A stretch of 44,357 nt of DNA, taken from NCBI RefSeq assembly GCF_001517915.1, contig NZ_LOQI01000007.1:1-44357 (forward strand), given 5' to 3'. The position numbers and the translations under genes are program-made. The notes under the pieces were generated by a model. That model did no database searches, was not told where the DNA came from, and saw nothing but the letters and a program-made list of their open reading frames with translations. The stretch is from Oceanivirga salmonicida. GTDB lineage: Bacteria; Fusobacteriota; Fusobacteriia; Fusobacteriales; Leptotrichiaceae. This document shows, in pieces, positions 114-11,159 of this stretch; position 1 is the first letter of the stretch; every line of letters starts with the position of its first letter.

Positions 114-146
114 GTGACTTTTATAGGGGGGGGGGGGGTATATAAT
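114..146 (+). promoter_or_regulatory. Candidate phase-variable promoter of the sorbitol operon
   Basis: A perfect TATAAT lies at 141-146, about 24 bases before the gutM start. The best -35-like hexamer upstream is GTGACT at 114-119, which matches TTGACA at four of six positions. The two are 21 bases apart, and 13 of those bases are an uninterrupted G run. Loss of four G would give the optimal 17-base spacing. The -10 call is strong; the -35 call and any switching are inferred. Confidence 0.55.
126..138 (+). repeat. Homopolymeric G13 tract
   Basis: Thirteen consecutive G lie in otherwise extremely AT-rich DNA, and no comparable G or C run occurs elsewhere in the window. Poly-G tracts of this length are known to mutate by slipped-strand mispairing. 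The exact length is the least reliable part of any assembly and may also vary within a culture. Confidence 0.9.
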
Positions 147-169
147 ACTATAAAATAGAAAGGAGATAA

Positions 170-604
170 ATGAATATTATAACTATAATAATATTATTAC
201 TAATTTCTTTTATTTTGCAATATATTTTTACATTTATGCAAATAAAAAATTTTAATATATTTTATTCAAAATTACGAAAAAATGGGAAAGTAGCCATTGG
301 TAAAAAAAAAGGTGGATTTAGAGCAGGAGCCATAGTTATGTTTTCATTAAATTCCAATAATGAAATATTAGACGGGGCATATATGCAAGGAGTTACTGTA
401 TTAGCGAGATTTAAAAAAATTGATATTTTTAATGGCACTAAAATAATTTGTATTACAAAAGAAATGTGTTTAAATAAAAAATTGTCTTTATCACTGACAG
501 AAGCTATTTTGGATAGTGTTGAAACATTTAAAAAAGTTAATTGTGGTGAAGAAATACCATTGCCAAAAAGTTTATTTGGTAAAATTATTGAAAAAATAAA
601 ATAA
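170..604 (+). CDS. gutM: GutM-type glucitol operon accessory/activator protein
   Basis: This 144-residue protein resembles the GutM family, which accompanies glucitol PTS operons and is described in enteric bacteria as a transcriptional activator. It has an N-terminal hydrophobic segment at about residues 3-24, then a soluble part with the family-like KKGGFRAGAIVMF stretch at about 46-58. The start is supported by AAGGAG at 159-164. It is the first gene of the operon, 18 bases before the EIIC gene, so its expression would depend directly on the G-tract promoter. Identification rests on family resemblance plus context. The membrane-anchor appearance is typical of the family, and its mechanism here is unknown. 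Confidence 0.8.
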   Translation: MNIITIIILLLISFILQYIFTFMQIKNFNIFYSKLRKNGKVAIGKKKGGFRAGAIVMFSLNSNNEILDGAYMQGVTVLARFKKIDIFNGTKIICITKEMCLNKKLSLSLTEAILDSVETFKKVNCGEEIPLPKSLFGKIIEKIK

Positions 605-622
605 AATATATAAGGAGGAAAT

Positions 623-1165
623 ATGGAAACACTAGTATCATTAGCATCAAGTTTTAATGGATTATTTGAAACAGGTGGAAATGTTTTCATAAGTTGGGTA
701 GTAGGAATTATACCTAAAGTATTATTGTTGTTAGTATTTATGAATACTTTAATAGCACTTATAGGACCAAAAAAAATTAATACATTTGCCCAAATATGTT
801 CAAAAAATGTAATATTAGCATACGGAATATTACCATTTTTAGCAGCATTTATGTTAGCAAATCCTATGGCATTGTCTATGGGTAAATTTTTACCTGAAAG
901 AATGAAACCTAGTTATTATGCATCAGCAAGTTATCATTGTCATACAAATAGTGGGGTATTTCCACATATAAATGTGGGAGAAATATTTATCTATTTGGGT
1001 ATAGCAACTGGCGTTGAACAATTAGGATTAAATATAACACCATTAGCTATTAGATATTTATTAGTTGGTTTAGTAATGAATTTTTTTGCTGGTTGGATTA
1101 CAGACTTTACGACTAAAATTGTTATGAAACAACAAAATATAATATTAAAAAATACACTTAAATAA
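623..1165 (+). CDS. srlA: PTS glucitol/sorbitol transporter EIIC subunit
   Basis: This is an integral membrane subunit that carries hexitol across the inner membrane while EIIB phosphorylates it. The 180 residues are close to the usual length of about 185. Hydrophobic segments are visible at about residues 22-44, 65-82, 113-131 and 138-160, with the family-typical SGVFPHIN stretch near 110-117. AAGGAGG at 612-618 supports the ATG start. It sits between gutM and the EIIB gene, in the classical order EIIC, EIIB, EIIA. Nothing looks truncated. Confidence 0.9.
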   Translation: METLVSLASSFNGLFETGGNVFISWVVGIIPKVLLLLVFMNTLIALIGPKKINTFAQICSKNVILAYGILPFLAAFMLANPMALSMGKFLPERMKPSYYASASYHCHTNSGVFPHINVGEIFIYLGIATGVEQLGLNITPLAIRYLLVGLVMNFFAGWITDFTTKIVMKQQNIILKNTLK

Positions 1166-1178
1166 TTAGGAGGGAGTT

Positions 1179-2180
1179 ATGTTTAAAACGATAAAAATTG
1201 AAAAAGGACATGGTGGATTTGGAGGGCCCTTATTTGTAACGCCAACTAAGGAAAAAAATAAATTAGTTTATATAACTGGAGGTGGAGCAGAACCTGAAAT
1301 AGTTGAAAAAATAGTTGAATTGACATCATGTATAGCAGTAAATGGTTTTAAAACATCAGTACCAGATTCTGAAATTTTTTTAGTTATTATTGACTGTGGG
1401 GGAACTTTAAGATGTGGAATATATCCTCAAAAAAGAATACCTACCGTAAATATTATGCCAATAGGACCAAGTGGACCATTATCAATACACATTAAAGAAG
1501 ACATTTATGTTTCAGGTGTTGGATTAGAACAAATAAATTCAGTAGATGAAGATTATGAAATAGAAAAAGAAAAAGTAGAAGAAAAAAATAAAAAAGAATT
1601 TAAATATTCAGCAGATAAAAAAGTTTCGGAAACAATTGCAAAAAATTCAAAATCTTCTATTATACAAAAAATAGGTATGGGAACTGGTAGAGTAGTAAAT
1701 ATATTTTATCAGGCTGGAAGAGATGCAGTTCAATCAATGATAACAACAATATTACCATTTATGGCATTTGTTGCTATGTTAATAGGAGTAATACAAGGTT
1801 CAGGATTTGGTAATTGGTTTGCTTCATTATTAACACCACTTGCTGGGAATATATACGGTTTAATAATACTAGGATTTGTATGCTCTATACCATTTTTATC
1901 TGCATTACTAGGACCTGGTGCTGTTATAGCACAAATTATAGGAACATTAATCGGAGTTGAAATAGGTAAGGGGAATATAGCACCAAGTTTAGCATTACCA
2001 GCTTTATTTGCAATTAATACTCAATGTGCTTGTGATTTTATACCTGTTGGATTAGGTTTAGCAGAAGCTGAACCAGAAACAGTTGAAGTTGGAGTTGTTT
2101 CAGTTCTTTATTCAAGATTTTTAATAGGTGTGCCAAGAGTAATAGTTGCATGGATAGCAAGTATAGGATTATATAGTTAA
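1179..2180 (+). CDS. srlE: PTS glucitol/sorbitol transporter EIIB(C) subunit
   Basis: The 333-residue EIIB subunit transfers phosphate from EIIA to the incoming sorbitol. An N-terminal cytoplasmic EIIB domain (about 1-120) contains [10 protein letters not shown], with Cys73 as the expected phosphocysteine. A charged linker rich in Lys and Glu (about 130-155) leads to a C-terminal membrane domain (about 190-333). Length agrees with the family (about 320-340). AGGAGG precedes the start. In contrast to the EIIA partner two genes on, the phosphorylation site is intact, so selection on the transport step appears to persist. Confidence 0.92.
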
Positions 2181-2202
2181 AATTATAAAATTAGGAGACT
2201 AA

Positions 2203-2562
2203 ATGATAATTTATGAAAATGTTGTAAAAAAAATAGGAAATTTTGTAGATGAGTTTGGAGCAGACACTATTATTTTTTTTGGTGATGGTGTGCCTGATAC
2301 ATTAGCAGATTATTGTTATATAATTGATATAAAATCTACAACAAGTAGAATTGTTGCAGGAGATATTATATATATTGGTGATGATGATTATAAAATATTG
2401 CAAATTGGAGAAGTTGCTGAAAAAAATTTAGTTAATTTGGGGCATTTAACAATTAATTTTACAGGAGATATAAGTAATCTTTTATCTGGAAATATAGTAG
2501 TTGATAAAAAATTTAATAAAAATATTGTAATAGGAACAAAAATAAAAATAATTAGAAAGTAG
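2203..2562 (+). CDS. srlB: PTS glucitol/sorbitol EIIA-like protein lacking the active-site histidine
   Basis: The 119 residues have the right size and fold signature for EIIA-Gut, which passes phosphate from HPr to EIIB. The conserved GEVAEKNLVNLGHLTINF segment (about 70-87) makes the family assignment secure. In E. coli SrlB the phosphorylated residue is His43 in the context EYCFIHC. The ungapped equivalent here is DYCYIID, with Ile41 in place of His (codon att at 2323-2325). The only histidine left is in the LGH motif, which E. coli also has and which is not the phosphorylation site. Frame and start (AGGAG upstream) are intact. It may be inactive, regulatory, or complemented in trans. Confidence 0.85.
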   Translation: MIIYENVVKKIGNFVDEFGADTIIFFGDGVPDTLADYCYIIDIKSTTSRIVAGDIIYIGDDDYKILQIGEVAEKNLVNLGHLTINFTGDISNLLSGNIVVDKKFNKNIVIGTKIKIIRK

Positions 2563-2568
2563 AAAAAA

Positions 2569-3378
2569 ATGAATTGGTTAAATTTAAAAGATAAAATAGT
2601 GTTAGTTACTGGTGGAGCATCAGGAATAGGAAAAGCTATAGTAGAAGAATATTTAAGACAAGGATGTAATGTTATAGTAAATGATATTTCTGAAAAACCA
2701 GAATTTAAAGGTGAAAATCAGGAAAACTTGTTATATGTTAAAGGAGATGTTTCAGTAAAAAAAGATGTTGAAAATGTAGTAGATAAAGCAGTTAAAAAAT
2801 ATTCGAAAATAGATATTTTAGTTAACAATGCTGGAATTAATATTCCTAGATTATTAGTTGATACTAAATATCCAGGAAGTCAATATGAATTAGATGAAGT
2901 TATTTATAATAAAATAATGGATATAAATGTCAAAGGAATTTTTCTTATGACACAGTCTGTAGCAAGAATTATGACGGCTAATAATTCTGGTGTTATAGTT
3001 AATGTTTCTTCTGAATGTGGAATGGAAGGTTCAGAAGGTCAAGGAATTTATGCAGCAAGTAAAAATGCAATGAATTCTTTAACAAGAACTTGGTGTAAAG
3101 AATTAGGGAAATATGGAGTAAGAGTTGTCGGTATAGCACCAGGAATAATTGAAGCAACTGGATTAAGAACTCTAACTTATGAAGAGGCATTGGCATATAC
3201 TAGAGGAATTATTGTTGATAAAATTAGAAAAGGCTATGAGAGTACAACAACCACTCCATTAGGTAGAGTTGGAAAATTAAGTGAAATAGCAGATACAGTA
3301 GTTTATTTATCTAGTGAAAGAGCAAGCTACATACATGGAACTACATGTAATGTTGCTGGTGGAAAGACAAGAGGTTAG
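2569..3378 (+). CDS. gutF: Sorbitol-6-phosphate 2-dehydrogenase (SDR family)
   Basis: It oxidises sorbitol-6-phosphate to fructose-6-phosphate with NAD+. The 269-residue protein has the Rossmann glycine motif TGGASGIG at 14-21, NNAG at 86-89, Ser147/148 and the catalytic pair Tyr161/Lys165 in YAASK. The long C-terminal stretch EATGLRTLTYEEALAYTRG and the ending NVAGGKTRG closely resemble lactic-acid-bacterial sorbitol-6-P dehydrogenases, which makes substrate assignment more specific than for a generic SDR. It is the last gene of the operon, only six bases after the EIIA stop. It has a poor ribosome site, so it is probably translationally coupled. Confidence 0.88.
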   Translation: MNWLNLKDKIVLVTGGASGIGKAIVEEYLRQGCNVIVNDISEKPEFKGENQENLLYVKGDVSVKKDVENVVDKAVKKYSKIDILVNNAGINIPRLLVDTKYPGSQYELDEVIYNKIMDINVKGIFLMTQSVARIMTANNSGVIVNVSSECGMEGSEGQGIYAASKNAMNSLTRTWCKELGKYGVRVVGIAPGIIEATGLRTLTYEEALAYTRGIIVDKIRKGYESTTTTPLGRVGKLSEIADTVVYLSSERASYIHGTTCNVAGGKTRG

Positions 3379-3406: not shown

Positions 3407-3434
3407 CGAGTAAAAAAAATTTTACTCGTTTTTT
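3407..3434 (+). terminator. Rho-independent terminator of the sorbitol operon
   Basis: Perfect 9-bp stem CGAGTAAAA (3407-3415) and TTTTACTCG (3420-3428) around an AAAA loop, followed by a T6 run. It lies 29 bases after the dehydrogenase stop. Confidence 0.9.
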
Positions 3435-6370: not shown

Positions 6371-6385
6371 AGGGGAGATATTTTT

Positions 6386-7147
6386 ATGTTTATTAAAGCA
6401 TTATTAATTGCTATTTATGCAGGTATAGCTGGAATTGAACAATTTGATGGATTGCAATCACTTCATAGACCTATAATAGCAGGGCTTGTAATTGGATTAA
6501 TTTTAGGAGATTTACAAAAAGGGCTAATTGTTGGAGGAAGTGTTGAATTAATATTTATGGGATTAGTTCCATTAGCAGGTGCTCAACCACCTAACATTGT
6601 TGTTGGGGGAGTAATGGGTATTTCTTTAGCATTATTAACAGGAATAGATGCAAAAGAAGCAATAGCTGTAGTAGTACCATTAGCATTAATAGGGCAAATT
6701 ATAGTTACATTAATGTTTGCACTATATTCAGGAATGATGAGTTATGGAGATAAATGTGCTGATGATGCAAATACTGGTGGAATTAATTTTATAATTTTAT
6801 TACAATTAATGATTAGATTTGTATTATTTGGTGGAGTTTCATTCTTATTCGTTTATTATGGTGCTGAACCAGTTAAAAATTTAATATCTGCATTACCAGA
6901 ATGGTTAGTTCATGGATTTGGTGTAGCTGGTGGAATGATGCCTGCAATAGGGTTTGCATTATTATTAAATATAATGTTAAAAAAAGAATACTTTGGTTTC
7001 TTAATTGTTGGTTACATATTAGCGGCATACTTAAAATTAGATTTAGTTGCTATAACATTAGCAGGACTTTCAATAGCACTCTATGATTATTATTCAAATA
7101 CTGGAAAAGTAGTAGCAACGAGAGGAGATGAAGAAGATGGAATCTAA
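6386..7147 (+). CDS. agaW: Mannose-family PTS EIIC
   Basis: This integral membrane subunit, 253 residues, forms the sugar channel together with EIID. Hydrophobic segments run from about 3-20, 30-48, 66-86, 94-114, 138-156, 170-190 and 206-230. The N-terminal pattern YAGIAGIEQFDG and the conserved GLVIGLILGDLQKGLIVGGSVELIFMG-type region (about 31-57) are hallmarks of the EIIC of this family. AGGGGAGA precedes the start. The 3' end overlaps the EIID reading frame, which suggests coupled translation of the two membrane subunits. Confidence 0.88.
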   Translation: MFIKALLIAIYAGIAGIEQFDGLQSLHRPIIAGLVIGLILGDLQKGLIVGGSVELIFMGLVPLAGAQPPNIVVGGVMGISLALLTGIDAKEAIAVVVPLALIGQIIVTLMFALYSGMMSYGDKCADDANTGGINFIILLQLMIRFVLFGGVSFLFVYYGAEPVKNLISALPEWLVHGFGVAGGMMPAIGFALLLNIMLKKEYFGFLIVGYILAAYLKLDLVAITLAGLSIALYDYYSNTGKVVATRGDEEDGI

Positions 7148-7949
7148 TAAATATATAAATAGAGAAGTAAAAAAAGTCATAACATCTTCTTTACTAAAGA
7201 AAATGGCAATTCGTTCATTTTACTGTCAAGCAGCATTTAATTTTGAAAGAATGCAAGCAGCAGGTTGGTTATTTAGTTTATTACCAGGTTTAAATGCAAT
7301 TCATACTGATAAAGAAGATTTGAAAAAATCAATGAAAATGCACATGGAATTTTTTAACACTCATCCGTTATTAATTACTTTCATATTAGGTTTAGTAATA
7401 GCAATGGAAGAAAATAAAGAAGATATTGATACAATAAGAGCAATAAAAGTCTCAACTATGGGTCCTATGGGTGGTATAGGAGATTCATTATTCTGGTTAA
7501 CATTCTTATCAATAGCATCAGGATTAGGAGCATCATTTGCTTTGCAAGGTTCAATAATGGGACCAATAATATTTATAGTATTATTTAATGTTATGCAATT
7601 TTCATTAAAATTTGGTCTAATGTTCTATGGTTATAAAACGGGTGTTAGATCAATAACTACATTAAAAGAAAATACTGAAAGATTTACTAAGGCAATTAGT
7701 ATCTTAGGATTAACAGTAGTTGGTGCAATGATAGCAACATTTATTAATCTAGTAGTTACAGTTACAATACCTGCTGGTGAGGCAACTGTTGAATTACAAA
7801 AAGCATTTGATGGAGTTATGCCAAGATTATTACCAGTATGTTACACATTCTTAATGTTATACTTAATTAGAAAAAATGTTTCTGCAACTATACTAGTATT
7901 CTTAACTTTAGCAATAGGAATACTTGGAGCATTAGTAGGAGTTCTTTAA
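7137..7949 (+). CDS. agaE: Mannose-family PTS EIID
   Basis: This is the second membrane subunit of the permease, 270 residues from the chosen start. Typical motifs are SFYCQAAFNFERMQAAGW near residues 28-45 and STMGPMGGIGDSLFW near 107-121. The ATG at 7137 is preferred because AGAGGAG (7121-7127) is nine bases upstream; an in-frame ATG at 7128 directly abuts that site and is unlikely. It overlaps the EIIC gene by 11 bases. C-terminal hydrophobic segments (about 168-190 and 222-270) anchor it in the inner membrane. Confidence 0.87.
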   Translation: MESNKYINREVKKVITSSLLKKMAIRSFYCQAAFNFERMQAAGWLFSLLPGLNAIHTDKEDLKKSMKMHMEFFNTHPLLITFILGLVIAMEENKEDIDTIRAIKVSTMGPMGGIGDSLFWLTFLSIASGLGASFALQGSIMGPIIFIVLFNVMQFSLKFGLMFYGYKTGVRSITTLKENTERFTKAISILGLTVVGAMIATFINLVVTVTIPAGEATVELQKAFDGVMPRLLPVCYTFLMLYLIRKNVSATILVFLTLAIGILGALVGVL

Positions 7950-7950
7950 T

Positions 7951-8388
7951 ATGGTATCAATATTATTAACAGGACATGGTAAAGTGTCATCAGGTATATT
8001 TGAAACATTAAAAATGTTATTTGGAGTAAATGAAAATATAAAATATATTGATTTTATTGAAGAAGAAACATCTGAAAATTTAAAAATAAAGATTAAAAAT
8101 CAAATAGATGAATTTTTAGAAAATACTGATGGAGTAATATGTTTAACTGATATTAAAGGAGGAACACCATTTAAAATTTGTTCAGAAATTTCTTTGGAAT
8201 TGTCTGGAAAAGTATCGGTAATATCTGGAACAAATGTTCCAATGCTAATGATGTTAGCATCTGAAATGGAAGATATATCTTTAATTGAAGCAGTTGAAAT
8301 AGCTTTAAAAACTGGTAAATCTGAAATTGAAGAATTTAAATTAGTAATGCGTAATTCAAATAATGATGATTTAGAAGATGGAATTTAG
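7951..8388 (+). CDS. agaF: Mannose-family PTS EIIA
   Basis: This cytoplasmic EIIA domain of 145 residues accepts phosphate from HPr at His9 in LLTGHGKVSSG. DIKGGTPFKICSE near 69-81 is the second family signature. It starts one base after the EIID stop and ends the operon just before a strong terminator, which closes a complete four-subunit PTS. It belongs to a different EIIA family from the glucitol EIIA at 2203-2562, so it is not an obvious replacement for that protein's missing histidine. Confidence 0.88.
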   Translation: MVSILLTGHGKVSSGIFETLKMLFGVNENIKYIDFIEEETSENLKIKIKNQIDEFLENTDGVICLTDIKGGTPFKICSEISLELSGKVSVISGTNVPMLMMLASEMEDISLIEAVEIALKTGKSEIEEFKLVMRNSNNDDLEDGI

Positions 8389-8398
8389 AGATATGATG

Positions 8399-8436
8399 AA
8401 ATACTTTTGAAACTTTTGTTTTGAAAGTATTTTTAT
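8399..8436 (+). terminator. Terminator of the aga-type operon
   Basis: AAATACTTTTGAAAC (8399-8413) pairs with GTTTTGAAAGTATTT (8418-8432) over 15 positions including two G-U pairs, with a TTTT loop and a T-rich tail. It starts ten bases after the EIIA stop. Confidence 0.85.
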
Positions 8437-8460
8437 TATATAATTCAAAAATTATTTAAA

Positions 8461-8489
8461 TTGAAACTTATCATAATAAATGGTATAGT
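8461..8489 (+). promoter_or_regulatory. Promoter of rdgB and following genes
   Basis: TTGAAA at 8461-8466, a 17-base spacer and TATAGT at 8484-8489, giving a leader of about 30 bases before the rdgB start. Confidence 0.75.
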
Positions 8490-8524
8490 ATAGGTAGTAT
8501 ATTTAATAAAATAAGAGGTGTGAT

Positions 8525-9100
8525 ATGAGAGAAATAATATTAGCAACTTCTAATAAGGGAAAATTAGAAGAATTCAATGAAATGGCTAAAAAATTAAATG
8601 TTAAGTTCGTAACCATAGATATGCCTTATATAGAAGAAAATGGTATAAATTTTGAAGAAAATTCATATATAAAGGCTAAAACTATATCTGAATATACTAA
8701 TAAAGTAGTATTAGCAGATGATTCTGGGTTAGAAGTAGAAGCATTAGATAATAAACCAGGTGTACATACAGCAAGATACATGAATCATTTACCTGAATAT
8801 AAAGATAGATGTGAGGCATTGATTAAAGAAGTAGATAAAACTAATGGTAAAAATAGGAATGCAAAATTTGTATGTGTTTTAACACTAGTATTTCCTGATG
8901 GAAGATATTATCATTTTAGGGGAGAGACTAAGGGATTAATTACAAAAAAATTAGAAGGAACTAATGGGCATGGTTATGACCCTGTGTTTTATAGTTTTGA
9001 TTTAAAAAAGACTTTTGGTATGGCAAGCATAGAAGAGAAAGATAGTGTTAGTCATAGAGCAAGAGCATTTGAAAAATTTAAGGAATTTATAAATGACTAA
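8525..9100 (+). CDS. rdgB: Non-canonical purine NTP pyrophosphatase (RdgB/HAM1)
   Basis: It hydrolyses ITP, dITP and XTP to monophosphates and so keeps deaminated purines out of nucleic acids. The 191 residues carry the family motifs in order: ATSNKGKLEEF at 7-17, FEENSYIKAK near 42-51, LADDSGLEV near 64-72, GHGYDPVFY near 147-155 and the C-terminal SHRARAFEKF. AGAGGTG provides the ribosome site. Its last eight bases overlap recG, so the two are translationally coupled. The neighbourhood is genome maintenance. Confidence 0.93.
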   Translation: MREIILATSNKGKLEEFNEMAKKLNVKFVTIDMPYIEENGINFEENSYIKAKTISEYTNKVVLADDSGLEVEALDNKPGVHTARYMNHLPEYKDRCEALIKEVDKTNGKNRNAKFVCVLTLVFPDGRYYHFRGETKGLITKKLEGTNGHGYDPVFYSFDLKKTFGMASIEEKDSVSHRARAFEKFKEFIND

Positions 9101-11159
9101 ATATGATGCTTTATTTCAAGATTTAGAGAATATAAAATTAAAAGGATTAACAACAGTAACTATTAAAAATTTAAAAAATTTAAATATATATAATTTATAT
9201 GATTTATTTTACTATTTTCCAAGAGCATATGAAAATAGTGCCGTGTATAAAAAAATAATTAATACTTATGACGGAGAAACAGCTATAGTAAAAGGTAAAA
9301 TAATAAGTATAAATAGGAGATATTTAGCTAAAAATAGATTAATGGTTACTGCAATTTTATCAGATGAAACAGGTTTTATTGAACTTATTTGGTTTAACAA
9401 TAAATATGTTTATTCTAATATAGTGGTGGGAACAGATTTAATAGTTACTGCTAAGATAAAAAAAGCGGCTAGAATACAAATGATAAATCCAAGTTATAAA
9501 AAAAGTGCTGATATATCGACATTAAATTCTAGTGTTAATTTAGAACCTATTTATCCTCTAACTAAGGGAATAAATCAAAAAAAATTAAGAGATTTAATAA
9601 AGAATGCAATAGATAAGTATGGAGTATTATTACAAGAAAATATACCCCTAGATTTTTTATATAACAACAAAATTATGTCTAGAACAAAATCAATAACTAA
9701 TATACACTTTCCAGAAAATAGCATAGCACTGGATTTAGCCATAAGAAGATTTACATATGAAGAAATTATGGTCCTAGAAATGGGTATTTTAAAAAATAAA
9801 TATTTAATTGATAAGAATAATAAACATTTATACTTTACAAATGATAACAAAATGTTAGTAAAAAAATATATAGCAAGTCTTAATTATGAACTTACAAATT
9901 CGCAAAAAAAAGTAATAACTACTATATACAATGAAATAAAAAAAGGAAAAATAATAAATAGACTTATACAAGGAGATGTAGGTTCAGGTAAGACGGTTGT
10001 AGCGATGATTATAATGCTATATATGGCTGAAAATAATTATCAGACGGCTATGATGGCTCCAACTGAAATATTAGCTACACAGCACTATAATAATGTGCAA
10101 GAGAATTTTAAAAATTTAGAAATTAGAGTAAAACTATTAACTAGTTCAGTTAAGGGTAAAAAAAGAGAAAAATTATTATCAGATATTGCTAATGGAGAAG
10201 TAGATATAGTAATAGGAACACATTCATTGATAGAAACAAATGTAATATTTAAAAGTTTAGCACTTACTGTAATTGATGAACAACATAGATTTGGTGTAGA
10301 GCAAAGAAATGCATTAAGAGAAAAATCTAATATTTCAAATATGATATTTATGAGTGCAACTCCTATACCTAGATCATTAGCATTAACTATTTATGGCGAT
10401 TTAGATATAAGTACAATAAATGAAATGCCAAAAGGTAGACAAAAAGTAATTACAAAATATATTAAAACTGATGAGCAAAAAGAAAAAATGTATGAGTTTA
10501 TAGATAAAAAATTATCTGATGGTCAACAAGTATACATAGTGGCACCATTAATTGAAAAAAGTGAAAAATTAAAAATGGTTTCAGTGCTAGAATTATATGA
10601 TGAAATAAAAGAAAAATTTAGTAAATACAATGTAGGATTATTACACGGTAAATTAAAAAACAAAGATAAAGAAACAGTAATGAATGATTTTAAAGAACAT
10701 AAGATAAATATATTAGTTTCTACAACAGTTATAGAAGTGGGTGTTGACGTGCCTAATTCAAATATTATGTTGATTAAAAGTGCTGAAAGATTTGGCTTAT
10801 CATCACTTCATCAATTAAGGGGACGTGTTGGTCGTGGAGACAAAAAAGCATATTGTTTTTTAGAATCAACAACTACAAATGAAGTATCTGAGAAAAGATT
10901 AGAAATATTAGAAAATGAAACAGATGGTTTTAAAATTGCAGAAGAAGATTTAAAATTAAGAAATTCAGGGGAAATATTTGGACTTAAACAAAGTGGAATT
11001 TCAGATTTAGTATTGCTAGATATAGTAAAAAATATTAAAGAAATAGAACAAGTAAAAGAATTTGTTAAAAAATATTTAGAAGAACATAATGGTAAAATAA
11101 ATAATGAATATCTAATAAAAGATATTAAAAATAAGCAAGATAATAAACATAAAGAATAG
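9093..11159 (+). CDS. recG: ATP-dependent DNA helicase RecG
   Basis: RecG remodels stalled replication forks and branch-migrates Holliday junctions. The 688-residue protein has an N-terminal wedge/OB region (about 60-150), Walker A in GDVGSGKTVV near 295, the DEQH box in DEQHRFGVEQR near 395, the SATPIPRSLA motif III near 422 and the C-terminal helicase half with QLRGRVGRG near 575. Length is typical of the family. It starts inside the rdgB stop region. The lysine-rich C-terminal tail precedes a small lipoprotein gene after ten bases. Confidence 0.95.
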   Translation: MTKYDALFQDLENIKLKGLTTVTIKNLKNLNIYNLYDLFYYFPRAYENSAVYKKIINTYDGETAIVKGKIISINRRYLAKNRLMVTAILSDETGFIELIWFNNKYVYSNIVVGTDLIVTAKIKKAARIQMINPSYKKSADISTLNSSVNLEPIYPLTKGINQKKLRDLIKNAIDKYGVLLQENIPLDFLYNNKIMSRTKSITNIHFPENSIALDLAIRRFTYEEIMVLEMGILKNKYLIDKNNKHLYFTNDNKMLVKKYIASLNYELTNSQKKVITTIYNEIKKGKIINRLIQGDVGSGKTVVAMIIMLYMAENNYQTAMMAPTEILATQHYNNVQENFKNLEIRVKLLTSSVKGKKREKLLSDIANGEVDIVIGTHSLIETNVIFKSLALTVIDEQHRFGVEQRNALREKSNISNMIFMSATPIPRSLALTIYGDLDISTINEMPKGRQKVITKYIKTDEQKEKMYEFIDKKLSDGQQVYIVAPLIEKSEKLKMVSVLELYDEIKEKFSKYNVGLLHGKLKNKDKETVMNDFKEHKINILVSTTVIEVGVDVPNSNIMLIKSAERFGLSSLHQLRGRVGRGDKKAYCFLESTTTNEVSEKRLEILENETDGFKIAEEDLKLRNSGEIFGLKQSGISDLVLLDIVKNIKEIEQVKEFVKKYLEEHNGKINNEYLIKDIKNKQDNKHKE

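Follow-up and report, generated by a model that had tools for sequence, protein, structure and literature searches.

The sorbitol operon of Oceanivirga salmonicida starts from a promoter in which an uninterrupted run of 13 guanines (G13) lies between a -35-like hexamer and the -10 hexamer, and this run is likely to act as a slipped-strand, promoter-spacer phase-variation switch of the operon. The tract was found in the window, by which we mean the whole stretch of 44,357 nucleotides that was analysed (25% G+C) and which forms the start of contig C7. The promoter stands directly 5' of five intact genes that span positions 170 to 3378 and begin with an ATG at 170. The features of the region are given below.

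114 to 119, plus strand: -35-like hexamer GTGACT, four of six consensus positions, TTGACT in the homologous promoter of contig C58 (from the sequence and an alignment with C58)
120 to 125, plus strand: TTTATA, an alternative weak -35, four of six positions, spacer 15 at G13 (from the sequence and a spacing table)
126 to 138, plus strand: G13 mononucleotide repeat in the promoter spacer (from the sequence)
141 to 146, plus strand: -10 hexamer TATAAT, perfect (from the sequence)
161 to 165, plus strand: AGGAG, Shine-Dalgarno sequence of gutM, perfect (from the sequence)
170 to 604, plus strand: gutM, glucitol operon activator protein (PF06923, E 1.9e-30)
623 to 1165, plus strand: srlA, sorbitol PTS EIIC (PF03608; TIGR00821 and NF049923 above cut-off)
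1179 to 2180, plus strand: srlE, sorbitol PTS EIIBC (PF03612/PF07663; TIGR00825 above cut-off)
2203 to 2562, plus strand: srlB, sorbitol PTS EIIA (PF03829 above cut-off)
2569 to 3378, plus strand: sorbitol-6-phosphate dehydrogenase, SDR family (NF004817, 397.7 bits against a cut-off of 304)
3407 to 3428, plus strand: bidirectional intrinsic terminator that ends the sorbitol operon

A first-pass annotation of this DNA had placed 13 G between a perfect TATAAT and a -35-like hexamer at a spacing of 21, and the sequence confirms this layout: TTTATA, the tract and a TA dinucleotide separate GTGACT from TATAAT. Its description of GTGACT as the only reasonable -35 was slightly overstated, because TTTATA matches the consensus equally well at a spacing of 15. 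The GTGACT register itself is supported by the TTGACT found at the equivalent place in the C58 promoter. Transcription is expected to start about 7 nucleotides 3' of the -10 hexamer. Tracts of G9, G10 and G11 would set the spacer to 17, 18 and 19. The earlier proposal that G9 gives a spacing of 17 holds, while its best range of G8 to G10 shifts to a likely G9 to G11, as the spacers of relatives centre on 17 to 19. Two properties that define promoter-spacer phase variation of the porA type are present: the homopolymer between the -35 and the -10 is pure, and a change of a few G carries the spacing through the optimum of 16-18 (19) bp.

In the proposed mechanism, slipped-strand mispairing at replication would add G to the tract or remove them in living populations, and each gain or loss would alter the spacing between GTGACT and TATAAT that the main sigma factor meets. 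Transcription of gutM, srlA, srlE, srlB and the sorbitol-6-phosphate dehydrogenase gene would then rise or fall in a heritable and reversible manner. Alleles of G9 to G11 are predicted to be ON. The assembled G13 allele is probably OFF or low, because its spacer of 21 lies at the limit of what was observed, and relatives cluster at 17 to 19. Cells would in this way randomly gain and lose the use of sorbitol. The next operon encodes an AgaS-like isomerase, a tagatose-bisphosphate aldolase and a sorbose/mannose-type PTS, and comes with a promoter-like site of its own that lacks a tract (TTGACA-17-TATCTT). Because of this separate promoter-like site and the terminator at 3407 to 3428, control by the switch would be limited to the five sorbitol genes. 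Loss of mismatch repair as a cause of hypermutability is not supported, since MutS1 is intact in the genome. G runs of such length slip in bacteria proficient in mismatch repair too.

Apart from G13, no G run in the window exceeds five nucleotides. Matches to G8 numbered six, against a mean of 0.05 in shuffles, and under a first-order model 7e-4 runs of at least 13 are expected genome-wide on both strands. The genome of O. salmonicida AVG2115T has been described as 1,769,081 bp with 25.4% G+C (PMC5093955), and the assembly used here has 1,768,580 bases in 247 contigs. It holds seven G runs of at least 8 nucleotides, all 11 to 14 long and none of 8 to 10; the other runs examined measured 6 or 7. 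Five of the seven sit between a -35 and a TATAAT-like -10, which suggests that the sorbitol promoter is one of several spacer-switch promoters in this genome.

Window promoter (contig C7): GTGACT-21-TATAAT, G13
C14 promoter: TTGACA-18-TATAAT
C47 promoter: TTGACT-17-TAAAAT
C58 promoter: TTGACT-18-TATAAT, G12
C72 promoter: TTGACT-17-TATAAT

The sixth run, on contig C1 (from C1:28043), lies in a degenerate version of the same -35/G-run/-10 layout, 5' of a gene with an in-frame stop at codon 43 that we take to be DinB/ClbS-like. The seventh is of another kind. It is a G11 on the minus strand (near C5:8960-8970), with a TATAAT on one side and, on the other, the ATG of the gene for a 32-residue peptide, MGHRRTEISNSTTAPIILLEDEILELLLSINL. 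Genes for a YcaO protein and for an ABC transporter follow, which makes this a candidate locus for a modified peptide (RiPP) that has a slippage tract of its own. On contig C6 (1491-1520 of the extracted locus), TTGACA-18-TATAAT surrounds an interrupted tract, GGGGGAGGGGGGG, 5' of a YadA-like trimeric autotransporter adhesin, and this promoter is probably a locked form of the same spacer switch.

The sorbitol tract is 125 bp from the contig end, and the C47 and C72 tracts are likewise close to contig ends. Such positions would fit an assembly or sequencing artefact in a homopolymer or near a contig end, an explanation that we consider extremely improbable: the AVG2115 assembly was made from 300-bp MiSeq reads at >90x (PMC5093955), and the same promoter architecture recurs in independent genomes, some of them near-complete at one to three contigs. 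The exact length of 13 could be the consensus of a mixture.

TTGAC followed after 1-9 bases by G8 or more was found in 10 of 33 Leptotrichiaceae genomes, and the full arrangement of TTGAC, G8 or more and TATAAT occurs at 67 sites in 12 of 98 Fusobacteriota genomes. Reversed-pattern controls gave zero in both searches. Three genomes of one Streptobacillus-like genus carry 12-22 sites each. The search for the full arrangement permitted spacers of 8-27, and all 67 sites have spacers of 15-21, with 56 at 17-19. Over all sites taken together, the non-G flanks are shorter where the tracts are longer (Spearman -0.35, p 0.0035; permutation p 1e-4), a pattern expected from selection on total spacing. 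This compensation arises between genera; inside the Streptobacillus-like genus by itself it does not reach significance (p 0.15). Tract length differs in 12 of 14 promoter pairs with flanks at least 86% identical, although the pairs are not all independent. Examples include G10 and G11 in two species with essentially identical flanks, G9 and G11 for two copies inside one genome, and G14 and G13 for the C47 and C72 paralogs of O. salmonicida. Such differences show change on an evolutionary time scale and not inside a single culture. The earlier suggestion of a spacer-tract phase-variation switch is thus strongly supported by recurrence with zero control hits, by spacing near the sigma-70 optimum and by near-identical promoters with unequal tracts. 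Three Leptotrichiaceae genomes (G004, G007 and G013) have 13, 9 and 6 G runs of at least 8, few of them in promoter spacers, and other slippage loci, perhaps in coding frames, may exist there.

G runs are able to form unusual DNA structures, and the tract might in principle be a fixed structural or regulator-binding element (a G-quadruplex, a stretch of A-form DNA or an operator) whose length is not a switch. We judge this very unlikely. Sites differ in tract length (8 to 14), as do near-identical promoters, yet total spacing remains close to 18, and the genes downstream are unrelated, which argues against a single operator. Single-strand folding gave marginal stems only (z about -2 to -2.7) and no significant fold, and the first 9.2 kb of the window contain no known RNA family.

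Two features of the sorbitol promoter count against the switch: its -35 is weak, and a TA insertion beside the -10 lengthens the spacer. The promoter could, because of these, be decaying. It may be a relic, formerly phase variable, in which the first T of TTGACT has gone and the TA has been acquired; the tract would still slip, the promoter would rarely or never work, and the operon would be silent or read from an upstream promoter beyond the contig edge. Its -35 match of 4/6 compares with 5/6 or 6/6 at C14, C47, C58 and C72, its spacer of 21 falls at the end of the range seen in the family, the C1 site demonstrates that such promoters do decay in O. salmonicida, and the contig starts at base 1 with upstream sequence beyond it. 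The five genes are intact, however, the TATAAT and the Shine-Dalgarno sequence are perfect, and loss of 2-4 G would bring back a spacing of 17-19. An uninterrupted G13 is itself unlikely to persist without use. Taken as a whole, decay together with a silent or otherwise driven operon seems unlikely to us, and we favour a working length switch.

The operon that this switch would control was annotated from family profiles as a genuine sorbitol PTS operon, as first proposed, since EIIC, EIIBC, EIIA and sorbitol-6-phosphate dehydrogenase are encoded together. Like other gut/srl PTS operons it has the order gutM-EIIC-EIIBC-EIIA-sorbitol-6-phosphate dehydrogenase, with 51-83% identity to Peptostreptococcus russellii. 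The highest value is that of EIIC. Marker genes of the sorbitol operon and of the C58 operon were not found in the genome of a genus-mate (rated 92% complete). With no match in the genus-mate and an EIIC this similar to that of P. russellii, the sorbitol operon was probably acquired horizontally. Among plasmids, matches to srlA reach about 68% identity at best and come mainly from Ligilactobacillus.

What sets this operon apart from gut/srl operons with GutR and GutM is the lack of a gutR ortholog and the poly-G promoter that stands 5' of gutM instead. GutR, a PRD-domain activator, is encoded in 69 of 80 related gut loci, and just upstream of gutM in 61 of the 75 with enough upstream sequence. 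The GutR proteins of related loci score 102-1346 bits against a Gemella protein. The best PRD protein of the O. salmonicida genome reaches 89, and this score excludes any PRD regulator of the organism as GutR. An ortholog is absent from the assembly (rated 99.98% complete), although the gene immediately upstream of gutM is cut off by the contig end; contigs C100 and C94, considered as carriers of an upstream gutR, do not overlap the window start. The arrangement of a GutR-activated operon, with gutR beside gutM or elsewhere in the genome, was therefore not found. GutM remains and could modulate expression of the operon, and the poly-G promoter seems to stand in for GutR.

A second catabolic operon has the promoter most like that of the sorbitol genes. 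The C58 operon (6379-10364 of the extracted locus) encodes CoA-transferase subunits, a short-chain fatty acid transporter and a thiolase, for acetoacetate/fatty acid use. The promoter piece from TATAATACTATAAA to AGAAAGGAGA scores above all 2000 shuffles; the likeness of the upstream half is marginal only (p 0.04), while that of the downstream half is beyond the shuffles, and the segment from the -10 to the Shine-Dalgarno sequence is closely alike in both promoters. This suggests promoter copying between the two operons. Among the loci examined in other family members, no poly-G was found 5' of CoA-transferase or gut genes.

These two metabolic operons are outliers, as the targets in relatives are mostly surface proteins. 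YadA head repeats were found in nine of 40 first downstream genes, and among the products of the others are autotransporter, pertactin-like, DUF285 and glycosyltransferase proteins. Of 51 N-termini, 46 look signal- or membrane-like under a crude rule based on hydrophobicity. Separately, genomes G003 and G046 have spacer promoters with G14 and G11 and near-identical flanks 5' of genes for short peptides whose leader is of the double-glycine type, MKITELNEVELMTIDGG; bacteriocin-like peptides may thus be phase variable as well. It is conceivable, and we would place it just short of probable, that a surface-protein switch was put on horizontally acquired catabolic operons, with random bet-hedging over carbon sources replacing activation in response to an inducer.

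A homopolymer also underlies the reversible loss of carbon-source use in Mycobacterium tuberculosis, where the gene affected is glpK. There the repeat shifts the coding frame, whereas in O. salmonicida it would set promoter spacing. In Neisseria meningitidis, porA, opc and fetA have homopolymers between the -10 and the -35 whose length changes alter spacing and transcription (PMC2791445). There, as in O. salmonicida, the homopolymer in this spacer is one of G or C. The present case differs in that the organism belongs to the Fusobacteriota, the target is a sugar PTS operon and not a surface antigen, and the switch is proposed here from sequence comparison; the case also differs in its genome-wide scale in Leptotrichiaceae and its use on catabolic operons. 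For Leptotrichiaceae, Streptobacillus and Fusobacterium, a search of literature that included few subscription journals found no relevant work on phase variation. The mechanism, being of the porA type, is already known; what appears to be undescribed is a sugar operon as its target and its spread across the family Leptotrichiaceae.

If the switch operates as proposed, a repeat in a promoter spacer would make carbon-source use in O. salmonicida a stochastic and heritable trait of the population. This would be unusual, because such promoter switches have been described mainly for surface antigens. Sorbitol tests of this organism would be predicted to be inconsistent. The arrangement would also suggest how acquired operons get wired in without their regulator, and the Leptotrichiaceae, including the Streptobacillus-like genomes, would carry a large and apparently undescribed set of phase-variable promoters.
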